A stretch of DNA of 64,000 nucleotides from Myxococcales bacterium (GTDB taxonomy: Bacteria > Myxococcota_A > Polyangia > Nannocystales > Nannocystaceae), in assembly GCA_014240065.1 (NCBI GenBank), contig JAAZXR010000005.1, positions 1 through 64,000 on the forward strand. The letters are read 5' to 3'. Made by a program: the position numbers and the translations under genes. Below the pieces are notes generated by a model, which searched no databases, was not told where the DNA came from, and saw only the letters and a list, made by a program, of their open reading frames with translations. This document shows, one piece after another, positions 17,689 through 23,318 of the stretch; within the stretch, counting starts at the first letter, position 1, and each line of letters begins with the position of its first letter.

Positions 17689-18101
17689 TGGGCTGCTGCG
17701 ATGATACACGCGGCCGCCTGCGCCTCGCCGTGAGCGGGTGGACGTGACCCGGTCGCCCCCGCCCGGCCTGGTGCGACCGCGCGGGACGGGCTGTATTGTG
17801 AGATCTCTGTCAGAGCGACCCGCGGGAGCGACGCGCGCAGCAGCCGAGCGTCGCGCCGGGTGGCGCCGGCGGTCGGATGTCGGCCAGCGGGGAGGGCAGC
17901 CCCGCGACGCGAAGCTGTCTGCGCACACACGGAGTCGGGCGCGGAACGCCGATGCCTCGCGGGGTCACGCCGTTCATCGAGGGTTGGCGGTCTCGACCGC
18001 GTCGAGGCGAGCGAGCGCGCAGTCGCTCGCACACTGAAGGCGGGTGACACGAAATGAAACGGTGACGAGCGGTCACTGGGTCCGTGAGGTCAACGTCAAT
18101 G

Positions 18102-18144
18102 ATGAGCAATGCTCATCAATTTGGAGATGATGAGCATTGCTCAT
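18102..18144. promoter_or_regulatory. Tandem pair of 15-bp palindromes, candidate operator
   Basis: ATGAGCAATGCTCAT at 18102-18116 and ATGAGCATTGCTCAT at 18130-18144 are the same palindrome with opposite central base, 28 bp centre to centre. The downstream one ends 9 bp before a plausible -35 box. This arrangement is typical of a TetR-like repressor or similar dimeric regulator binding two sites. The rest of the 520-nt gap (17689-18208) shows no convincing gene; a weaker inverted repeat, gtgac/gtcac, lies at 18062-18076. Confidence 0.7.
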
Positions 18145-18153
18145 GAACCTTGC

Positions 18154-18181
18154 TTGCTTTTTTTTGGGGCTCGGGTAGTGT
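18154..18181 (+). promoter_or_regulatory. Possible promoter downstream of the palindromes
   Basis: TTGCTT at 18154-18159, a 16-bp spacer containing a T8 run, and TAGTGT at 18176-18181. Transcription would begin near 18188, about 20 nt before the chosen ATG of the small gene. A repressor on the palindromes could block polymerase access. Confidence 0.4.
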
Positions 18182-18208
18182 GAGACCATGCGAGGCCGAG
18201 GCAGCGTC

Positions 18209-18394
18209 ATGGGCGATCACAACTGGGACCTCTCCACCAGCGCGTGGCGTGCGCTGGAGATCGGGCTCACGGAGTCGGGGGTCCGCAGGATCGTCGACGC
18301 GGACGACGACAAGCGCTCCAAGGAGGCTGAGGCGCGCAGCAAGCTCGACATGCGCCTCACCGACGCGCTCTGGGATCGTGGCGCCCTCTTCTAG
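18209..18394 (+). CDS. Small soluble protein of unknown function
   Basis: 61 residues starting MGDHNWDLSTSAWRALEIGL, very rich in charged residues (VDADDDKRSKEAEARSKLD), with no signal or membrane segment. GAGG lies 9 nt before this ATG; an alternative ATG at 18188 would be almost at the predicted transcription start. The unusually well-marked control region (two palindromes plus a promoter upstream, a symmetric terminator downstream) argues that this is a real, tightly controlled gene. No family is recognised. Confidence 0.6.
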   Translation: MGDHNWDLSTSAWRALEIGLTESGVRRIVDADDDKRSKEAEARSKLDMRLTDALWDRGALF

Positions 18395-18426: not shown

Positions 18427-18458
18427 AAAAAGACGGGGGCTAGTCCTCGTCTTTTTTT
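18427..18458. terminator. Bidirectional intrinsic terminator
   Basis: AAAAAGAC...GTCTTTTT flanks a G/C-rich inner stem (gggg / cctc) with a short loop, giving an A run on one side and a T run on the other. It lies between the stop of the small plus-strand gene and overlaps the last codons of the convergent membrane gene. Confidence 0.75.
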
Positions 18459-19165
18459 CGTGGCCACAATTGAGCGGTCGCGAACAGCAGGGTCAGACCG
18501 ACGATGAGCGCGGTCACCCATGGTTGATCGCCGTGGCCGGTGCGGGTGGTGTCGAGCATGACGGCGCGGACCTCGCCAGCGCTGCCCTCGCCAAGTTGGA
18601 TCAGCACTTCGCTGACACCGATCGGTGGAGGTGCGAGCGCGCCAGAGAGTTTCACCCGCTCGGGTCCTTTGCGGACACGCTCCGGGACCCGCGCGATCAC
18701 TGCGCGGCCGTCAATCTTGATCACGCCCTTGGAGGTCCCCACGAGGGGCATGAGGACGGCGTGGGCGGCCTGATTTTGGTTGGGGCGATCGCCCTTGGGG
18801 ACCTGAAACTCCCGAAGCTGCATGCTCGGCCGCAAGAACCCCTCGACGCGCACGAACCCCTCGGCCTCTTCGGGGAGAGGTGCCTCCGTCAGGTCGTAGC
18901 GCGGCCACGTGGCGATGTCACCGGGCGCCATCAGCAGGCCAGTGGTGAGCGGCGCTTGATGGGTGGCGACGGCGAGCATCAGGCCGCCGAGCGTCGCGGA
19001 GGTGACCCGCACGCCGCACGCGACGCCGGCGATCAAGCCCACGACCCCCGCGAGGGTGGCCCACACCCACTCTGGGCCGAGCTGTGTCAACGAGCCCGCC
19101 GGAGCGAGCGCGGCCACGAGCGGAAACCCAAGACAGATTCCGAGGATGAACAGGCGGGCTGCCAC
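18440..19165 (-). CDS. Membrane protein with extracytoplasmic domain
   Basis: 241 residues from a GTG start chosen so that the first membrane helix (ARLFILGICLGFPLVAAL) comes right after the start. Two more helices follow (about residues 30-75), then a soluble domain of about 110 residues (DLTEAPLPEEAEGFVRVEGF, VLMPLVGTSKGVIKIDGRAV), one C-terminal helix (VTALIVGLTLLFATAQLW) and the charged end PRKKDED. The topology (soluble domain held between helices) recalls SURF1-type or DUF-type membrane proteins, but no family motif is certain. Confidence 0.65.
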   Translation of the reverse strand: MAARLFILGICLGFPLVAALAPAGSLTQLGPEWVWATLAGVVGLIAGVACGVRVTSATLGGLMLAVATHQAPLTTGLLMAPGDIATWPRYDLTEAPLPEEAEGFVRVEGFLRPSMQLREFQVPKGDRPNQNQAAHAVLMPLVGTSKGVIKIDGRAVIARVPERVRKGPERVKLSGALAPPPIGVSEVLIQLGEGSAGEVRAVMLDTTRTGHGDQPWVTALIVGLTLLFATAQLWPRKKDED

Positions 19166-19314
19166 GACCAGAGCATAGCAGGTCTGCGTCCCCGCAGCGT
19201 GAGCGCTGCTCCTCGAGCGACACGATCGGCGAGGGTTCACAGGGTCAACGCGCGCTGACGCGCAGGCGGTTGAGGCGTCGGAGCGCGGCTTGGAGTTCGT
19301 GGTATCGTCTGGGT

Positions 19315-20985
19315 GTGCGTACCGCTGTCTTTTCGCGAGCGCTGTGCGTCGCTGCCGTCACACTGGGCCTCCAAGGCTGCACGGGGCGGGCTCCGGCGAT
19401 GAACTGGATCTCCGAGTCAGCGGCCGTGGTGCATTGCGTCGGGGTGGGGCCTGCCGCCGAGCGCCCTTCGATTCACGACGAGCTCCCGGTGGTGGACGCC
19501 CCCACCCAGTTTTTCCTGCGGAGCATGGCCCCGGAGGACCTCAGCGATCTCGGCTTCGCCCCCAACACGGCGGCGTGCGCGGCGCTGCTCCCGAATTCGT
19601 GGGCTGAGATCGATCGGATGGAGGCCGACATGAAGGGGCTTCGTGGTGTGCTCAACGATCTCACGGTGGAGATTCGCCAGAGCGACGCGTGTTTCTGTTC
19701 GCAGCTGCGTGGCCTCGATGCGCAGTGGATCGCGCCCTCGTGCAGTCGCGCGTGGGCGCGCTTGGGGTGCAAGCCGCAAGATATTGTCGCCCAGCGGGCG
19801 CTCGCGCCGAAGATCGAGCCGGCGGAAGAGCTGGCCACGCAACTTGAGGTACCGATGGAGCATTGGCGGCTCGTGGGGCGTACGGATCGACCGGGATTTT
19901 GGGAGCACCGCTACCGCTGGCTCAAGCGCAGATTCGACGGCGCCTCGGAGGCCTTTGAGCCAGGGGTCCCCGCCACTACGGGCCCGAGCATGCTGCTGGT
20001 GAACGCGCTGCTCGAAGCGCCGGGTGTCGTGATGGTGGTGCGTCAAGAAGGTGGGCGATCCATTTTGGTGGTGCGAGAGCCGGAGAAGGACATGCTCGTG
20101 TTCGATCTGTTCCGCAAGCCAGTCTACGAGAACGAGAGCTTGAGTCTGCTCCACAAGCTCGACGATGTGCGTCCGGGGACGTACCTCGACGCGCTCTCAA
20201 AACCGGCGTCGGCGCTGAAGCTGCCGGGGAACCCGCGAAAGTCGATGACCACATGGATGAGTCACGACGGGCTCGAGCGGGTGGACGCTGCGCTCCGCGC
20301 CGTTAACAATTTTTTTCAACTCCCCCCGCTCAAGCGGATTGACGAAGGGGTCGAACCACTCGTCGAGACCATCCTTTGGACCACCCCGGTAGGGGAGGGC
20401 GAAGACCCCTCGACCTCAGAGGTGACGTTGTCGTTGACCGAGGAGGGGGTCGCGTGGGCCGCCGCAGCGCGCGACGAAGGGTTCGCCTCGCAGATCTATG
20501 AGCTCGCGGAGTTGGAGGAGAAGCGAGAGAGCCCCATCTTCGAGGCGATGGCGGCGGAAGATGAGGTGCGCGTTGCGCCAGCGCCGGGAGGTGAGCCGAC
20601 GCGGCAGGGACCAGACGGCGTCCACGCGGGCGCGGGGGACAGCGCGGGAGATCGGGAGCCGTCGCACCCGGGGTTCTCGGCGTCCGCGCCGCGGACCCTC
20701 GACATTGAGCCGGTGCACACCCCCGCCATCGGGGGGGTGTGGTTTCACGGGCTGCGGCGGGCGGTGGTGTTCCTCAGCGCGGCTGAGTTCGAGTACACCG
20801 GCACATTTAAGGGGACCATCGACGAGTGGACCTTGGAGGTCCCTAACGCGTTTCATCCGCGAGATCTGCGCGTGGTCTCCGCATTTCGACCGACGATGTC
20901 TCGGCTTGGCAGCCGCCCCCATGTGATCGACGGTGGCCTCACAGACGACGGAGCGGCGGTTTGGATCCGTCTCCGCAGCCCCTAA
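19315..20985 (+). CDS. Lipoprotein of unknown function
   Basis: 556 residues from a GTG start that yields the signal VRTAVFSRALCVAAVTLGL with lipobox LQGC. The N-terminal third is Cys-containing (DACFCSQLRGLDAQWIAPSC); the middle is mixed alpha/beta with a clear hydrophobic pattern; and a low-complexity Pro/Gly/Asp-rich linker (about residues 430-470) precedes a final beta-rich domain (VWFHGLRRAVVFLSAAEF). It starts divergently from the preceding membrane gene and is probably exposed at the cell envelope. No family is recognised. Confidence 0.65.
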   Translation: MRTAVFSRALCVAAVTLGLQGCTGRAPAMNWISESAAVVHCVGVGPAAERPSIHDELPVVDAPTQFFLRSMAPEDLSDLGFAPNTAACAALLPNSWAEIDRMEADMKGLRGVLNDLTVEIRQSDACFCSQLRGLDAQWIAPSCSRAWARLGCKPQDIVAQRALAPKIEPAEELATQLEVPMEHWRLVGRTDRPGFWEHRYRWLKRRFDGASEAFEPGVPATTGPSMLLVNALLEAPGVVMVVRQEGGRSILVVREPEKDMLVFDLFRKPVYENESLSLLHKLDDVRPGTYLDALSKPASALKLPGNPRKSMTTWMSHDGLERVDAALRAVNNFFQLPPLKRIDEGVEPLVETILWTTPVGEGEDPSTSEVTLSLTEEGVAWAAAARDEGFASQIYELAELEEKRESPIFEAMAAEDEVRVAPAPGGEPTRQGPDGVHAGAGDSAGDREPSHPGFSASAPRTLDIEPVHTPAIGGVWFHGLRRAVVFLSAAEFEYTGTFKGTIDEWTLEVPNAFHPRDLRVVSAFRPTMSRLGSRPHVIDGGLTDDGAAVWIRLRSP

Positions 20986-22715: not shown

Positions 22716-22718
22716 GTG

Positions 22719-23318
22719 ATGGCCAAACTCTATTTTCGGTACGGGACCATGGACAGCGCGAAGACGCTGAACCTGTTGGCGGTGGCGCACAACTACCGCA
22801 AGCAAGGCAAGCAGGTGGTGTTGGTGAAGCCGCAGCTTGATGATCGCTTCGGGGAGGTGCAGATCAAGTCGCGCTCGGGGCTTGAGGCCCCCGCGGATCT
22901 GTTGGTGCGGCCCGGTGAGACCGTTGACGCGGAGCGGTTTGAGGGCATCGACTGCGTGCTCGTGGACGAGGCACAATTCATGGAGCCCAGCTTCATCGAC
23001 GCCATGCGGGACCTCACCAAGACCCACAATATCCCGGTGATCTGCTATGGGCTGCGCACCGACTTCCAGACGAAGCTGTTCCCCGGCGCGCGGCGCCTGT
23101 TCGAATTGGCGGACTCTATCGAGGAGGTGAAGGTGACCTGCCAATACTGTTCGAAGAAAGCCGTATTCAATATGCGGTTGGCGGAGGGGGCGCCAGTGTT
23201 CAAGGGTGAGCAGGTGCATCTTGGCGCGGACGAGAGCTACGCGCCGGTGTGCTTCCAGCACTACAAGGCGGCCGCCCTCGAGGCCGGGGTCGCGTGGCCG
23301 TTTAAGTTTGACGCGTAG
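22719..23318 (+). CDS. tdk: Thymidine kinase
   Basis: 199 residues; AAGGAG ends 6 nt before the ATG, which overlaps nothing but follows the M28 stop by 3 nt, so the two are probably co-transcribed. It phosphorylates thymidine to dTMP in salvage. The P-loop is YGTMDSAKT, with Ala in place of the usual Gly before Lys. The lasso/active-site parts are present (VLVDEAQFM with catalytic Glu; YGLRTDFQTKLFPGA for dTTP/thymidine binding). Zinc-site cysteines CQYC and VCFQHY mark the type II (TK1-like) family. Nucleotide salvage fits growth on DNA released from prey. Confidence 0.93.
   Translation: MAKLYFRYGTMDSAKTLNLLAVAHNYRKQGKQVVLVKPQLDDRFGEVQIKSRSGLEAPADLLVRPGETVDAERFEGIDCVLVDEAQFMEPSFIDAMRDLTKTHNIPVICYGLRTDFQTKLFPGARRLFELADSIEEVKVTCQYCSKKAVFNMRLAEGAPVFKGEQVHLGADESYAPVCFQHYKAAALEAGVAWPFKFDA

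Follow-up and report, generated by a model that had tools for sequence, protein, structure and literature searches.

A pair of exact palindromes before an orphan small gene of a Myxococcales bacterium is probably a tandem operator for a TetR-type repressor

Introduction

What acts on two copies of the same palindrome, set 28 bp apart in front of a gene for a protein of only 61 or 68 residues, and what would such an arrangement control? The question arises from a window of 64,000 nucleotides, the whole stretch of DNA analysed here, at the start of contig JAAZXR010000005.1 of a Myxococcales bacterium. An earlier note on this DNA, made from the letters alone, took the palindromes for an operator and the gene for a signal-induced effector or an antitoxin-like switch. 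We followed the palindromes, the small gene and the candidate regulators through this genome, its relatives and a broad set of prokaryotes. The results point to a tandem operator at which a homodimeric repressor of the TetR type, the product of a gene elsewhere in the genome, would bind, a reading that we consider probable. The switch itself is most likely of an ordinary, repressor-controlled kind, and it is the orphan target that is unusual.

Results

The palindromes and their rarity

Copy 1 (ATGAGCAATGCTCAT, 18102-18116, ATGAGCA-A-TGCTCAT) and copy 2 (ATGAGCATTGCTCAT, 18130-18144, ATGAGCA-T-TGCTCAT) both match the 15-bp ATGAGCA-N-TGCTCAT with zero mismatches and carry no strand assignment. 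Because only the central base is flipped, the two are at once direct repeats and reverse complements of each other, and their spacing is 28 bp whether taken from centre to centre or from start to start; the twin palindrome that the earlier note had described is exact and lies at the coordinates given there. The symmetry of copy 1 extends to 19 bp, giving the perfect palindrome TGATGAGCAATGCTCATCA (18100-18118), so that at 19 bp and 15 bp both copies are short inverted repeats with an internal dyad, within the range of about 10-30 bp expected of TetR-type operators.

Nowhere else in the window do two odd palindromes whose 6- or 7-base halves are identical lie within 60 bp of each other, and an equivalent pair arose in none of 100 first-order simulations of it. 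The genome as a whole (4,716,115 bases in 235 contigs, 97.7% complete) holds no further copy within one mismatch; two mismatches admit one extra site, which is single and at background level, a reversed control pattern giving as many. Numerous random copies of the palindrome, which the earlier note had named as the result that would speak against its reading, were sought and not found. Among 290 genomes of the class, WTGAGCANTGCTCAW is present at least once in only seven, twice only in this one, and the other six occurrences are single sites near background; among 379 genomes of the phylum, this one alone holds the pair. The contig of the sister genome begins at window position 19837, beyond the palindromes, and no relative genome contained the palindrome locus to show its conservation.

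The motif pair in other genomes

A scan of 84,980 prokaryote species genomes, from which the records of this genome may have been excluded, for TGAGCA-N-TGCTCA occurring twice within 32 bp returned 36 other loci. Their hosts are Bradyrhizobium, Nocardia, Modestobacter/Klenkia, Acidimicrobiales, Nanopelagicales, Micromonosporaceae, an alphaproteobacterial MAG and a Polyangiaceae MAG. In 31 of the 36, a TetR-type helix-turn-helix starts no more than about 210 nt from the pair, as against 303 of 10,800 random positions in the same loci (2.8%), and Pfam found TetR_N or TetR_C domains in all six representatives tested. Since so large a share of the pairs adjoins a TetR-type gene where about 3% would be expected, the pair in the window most likely serves as a tandem operator of the TetR type, which lends weight to the operator role first claimed for it. 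The search that the earlier note had advised, for a TetR-like gene whose own promoter bears the motif, likewise succeeded at 31 of the 36 pairs once it was widened to other genomes, and most of the TetR genes found with the motif do carry it in their own promoters.

Many of the 31 loci come from two genera and are closely related to one another; the independent evidence therefore amounts to four groups and not to 31 events. At least four unlike TetR groups stand beside the pair (those of Bradyrhizobium, of Nocardia with other actinobacteria, of Acidimicrobiales and of Polyangiaceae), which suggests that the association of motif and TetR protein probably arose more than once. Among the exceptions, L017 and L033 come from one MAG, and the TetR gene at L033 does have a pair, while at L018 a TetR-type helix-turn-helix like those of Nocardia lies about 2.5 kb from the pair; at the three Modestobacter loci no TetR-type helix-turn-helix was present in the locus DNA examined. 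The centres of the pairs elsewhere lie 23-45 bp apart, a range that includes the 28 bp seen here and that implies, by its variability, no fixed contact between dimers. Two viral matches (L042 and L043) were set aside as tandem repeats, the former inside coding sequence.

Two recurrent arrangements were seen among these loci. At 14 loci from Bradyrhizobium and the alphaproteobacterial MAG, a TetR-type gene diverges from a gene judged by eye to be PspA/IM30-like, with two or three TGAGCA-N-TGCTCA-like sites in the intergenic region; the TetR-type protein of these loci is likely an autoregulated repressor, and we found no description of this arrangement in open-access papers. In Nocardia (L006 and others), in a Nanopelagicales MAG and in a Micromonosporaceae MAG (L032, L035), a TetR gene with the recognition helix ISRGLLFHYF diverges from an acyl-CoA dehydrogenase gene, again with the motif pair.

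The comparison also bears on whether the pair might act as RNA, as a terminator or processing site, and not as a protein site. If transcribed, the two copies could form a hairpin with a perfect 17-bp stem and a 9-nt loop (-27.8 kcal/mol, z -7.2), and a T8 run follows about 15 nt beyond the stem. Such a stem, however, forms from any two copies of a palindrome, which makes an RNA role unlikely, and the palindromic nature of each copy would be needless for a hairpin. The T run is not adjacent to the stem, Rfam gave no match, no coding-like gene reads into the pair on either strand, and the same pairs precede TetR genes in other phyla at various spacings. We therefore regard the RNA reading as very improbable.

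Candidate regulators in this genome

If a TetR-type repressor binds the pair, its gene is not next to it: no TetR gene adjoins the palindromes. A PF00440 search of the genome found nine TetR genes (L044-L052), none of them on the window's contig, and the motif, even within two mismatches, is absent from the promoters of all nine. Both findings count against the TetR-type reading, as most TetR genes that accompany the motif in other genomes have it before themselves. The regulator would accordingly lie elsewhere, as the earlier note had supposed. The PF00440 search can miss divergent members of the family (at the threshold applied, TetR_C_33 was the sole match of the Bradyrhizobium protein), and an additional PF13305 search of the genome returned one gene, already among the nine. 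Several of the nine have different palindromes close before their start, possibly operators of their own.

Two of the nine deserve comment. The protein of L049 (contig C206) resembles the Nocardia repressors over its full length (27.5%, E 3e-22), and its recognition helix, ISRGLLYHYF as compared with ISRGLLFHYF in Nocardia, is the closest among the nine. Directly upstream of its gene is a perfect 20-bp palindrome, TTGAATTGAATTCAATTCAA, which recurs letter for letter in the sister genome and in a second genus of the family (L049, L096, L097). Since this palindrome is conserved in three genomes and differs from the motif of the window, L049 is probably not the regulator sought. A related palindrome, GAACTGAATTCAATTCAGTTC, precedes the L049 ortholog at L104. 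The protein of L050 (contig C167) is the only one of the nine with TetR_C_33, a domain that it shares with the repressors of Bradyrhizobium and Acidimicrobiales, and upstream of its gene is a weak single TGAACAGTGTTCG.

The small gene and its protein

The small gene occupies 18188-18394 of the forward strand and encodes 68 residues from the ATG at 18188 or 61 from the ATG at 18209, the latter preceded by GAGG about 8 nt upstream. The GC content of its codon positions (0.66/0.48/0.92) resembles that of the neighbouring genes, for instance the lipase gene (0.68/0.50/0.87), and an overlapping alternative frame (0.53/0.82/0.64) is unlike the neighbouring genes, for which reason we take the small frame to be a real coding gene. 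Searched against 144 relatives and 318 genomes of the class, its product gave nothing above chance-level scores, and it has no relatives in IMG/VR or phages; a plasmid match was rejected, being a 40% stretch inside a larger Shinella protein (E 0.5). Pfam, PHROGs and PADLOC gave no match and NCBIfam none over cut-off, a PDB sequence search matched only designed proteins, and a PDB fold search with the model found nothing.

An alternative reading is that the protein itself binds the palindromes, as a Cro-like autoregulator of its own promoter. Residues 11-32 (SAWRALEIGLTESGVRRIVDAD) fit by eye what we take to be the classic helix-turn-helix positional pattern (A5, G9, V15, I18), and TIGR03879 of NCBIfam gives a sub-threshold match (E 0.13). 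The AlphaFold model, made from a single sequence and indicative only (mean pLDDT 75, pTM 0.39), places helices at 8-17 and 22-57 with a turn between them, and no regulator was located elsewhere in the genome. Yet its calculated pI of 4.9 makes the protein acidic, with DADDD after the would-be recognition helix; no helix-turn-helix family reached cut-off and no fold matched; and the predicted two-helix hairpin, for what a single-sequence model is worth, lacks the usual third helix. Autoregulation of the Cro kind thus appears improbable.

Surroundings and promoter region

The palindromes lie between genes in AT-rich DNA, 44-65 bp ahead of the coding-like frame (65 bp from the ATG at 18209), and the local GC content drops from about 70% to a minimum of 48% over them and the T8 run. 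On the upstream side, a gene for a lipase-like alpha/beta hydrolase (PF12146) lies at a distance of 414 bp and reads leftward, diverging from the small gene. Downstream, a hairpin and its T7 tail, identified by folding and without strand assignment, occupy 18427-18456 and overlap the stop of a convergent membrane-protein-like gene (18440-19192) that has no Pfam family over cut-off. The terminator-like hairpin claimed for the small gene is real, but it is probably common to both genes. A toxin-antitoxin module finds no support as an explanation: the small gene is a single frame followed by the hairpin and the convergent gene, with the lipase gene diverging on the other side, and the antitoxin-like switch once suggested finds neither a partner nor a match to any toxin, antitoxin or defence family.

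The convergent membrane-protein-like gene (reverse strand) and the lipoprotein-like gene (forward strand) that diverges from it, together at 18440-20985 of the window, are neighbours again at six loci in genomes of the family (L054, L055, L058, L059, L061, L062). The small gene is absent beside this pair in the other genomes of the family and thus looks like a lineage-specific gain. Further on, a thymidine kinase-like frame (by eye, 22716-23318) directly follows an M28 peptidase gene (PF04389, 21102-22715).

No sigma-70-like promoter upstream of the small gene reached the scan threshold, and a looser scan gave weak half-matches only, so that the "plausible promoter" of the earlier note is not confirmed. 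The core promoter presumably lies in the AT-rich stretch with the T8 run at 18150-18187 of the forward strand, where the best candidate by eye, a weak one, combines TTGCTT (18154-18159) and TAGTGT (18176-18181), 16 bp apart. This candidate sits downstream of both palindromes, a point that counts against a repressor in so far as it would suit an activator as well. A TetR-type activator acting upstream of the core promoter, or some other type of dimeric regulator (MarR, GntR or similar), would agree with that placement and with the finding that no TetR promoter in the genome bears the motif. Against this stands the fact that the paired motif elsewhere overwhelmingly adjoins TetR genes, and we judge such a regulator unlikely here, leaving TetR-type repression as our preferred reading.

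Discussion

We propose that each 15-bp palindrome would hold one dimer of a TetR-type protein. With both sites filled, transcription of the downstream gene of 61 or 68 residues, the presumed target, would be tightly shut off, the protein acting by repression and not by activation; a small ligand would then release the repressor and switch the gene on. Under such control the small gene may possibly serve as a signal-induced effector. A bolder view holds that this orphan is the sole target of a dedicated, tight repressor switch, that the protein works as a new microprotein effector or else represses its own gene in Cro-like fashion at these two sites, and that the locus is a lineage-specific one-gene unit without known relatives; we give this view no more than a slim chance.

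A lineage-specific microprotein under an apparently tight and dedicated switch is of interest in that its trigger could be found by a simple reporter screen. More broadly, a close pair of TGAGCA-N-TGCTCA sites distinguishes TetR promoters across several unrelated phyla and so offers a ready operator signature, one that we did not find described as such in the open-access literature.

Similar in design are the loci of Bradyrhizobium (L008), Nocardia (L006), Acidimicrobiales (L028) and the Polyangiaceae MAG (L033), where, as here, the same motif stands twice within tens of bases in an intergenic promoter region. There, however, a TetR gene is adjacent, whereas the window has no adjacent regulator, and in most of them the divergent gene encodes an enzyme (acyl-CoA dehydrogenase, or nitroreductase-like by eye) or a PspA-like protein. 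The operators of CprB and QacR also receive two repressor dimers on one promoter, as we propose for this locus, but those dimers occupy one overlapping site from opposite faces of the DNA (PMC4150764), unlike the two separate sites 28 bp apart seen here. Another parallel is FhtR of Enterococcus faecalis, which binds each of two palindromes with different centres, P1 (TTATCAATCGATAA) and P2 (TTATCGATTGATAA), in the single promoter of hrtBA; either suffices for repression without heme, and its authors proposed that two sites prevent leakage (PMC7858072). The window shares with that promoter two short palindromes that differ only at the centre and are mutually reverse complementary. The FhtR sites, by contrast, fall within the -10/-35 region, and what they govern is a heme efflux pump, whereas here the sequence is different and the target would be a lone microprotein. 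On the best-supported reading, for which we claim membership in no named regulon, the pair would work as the FhtR operator pair does.
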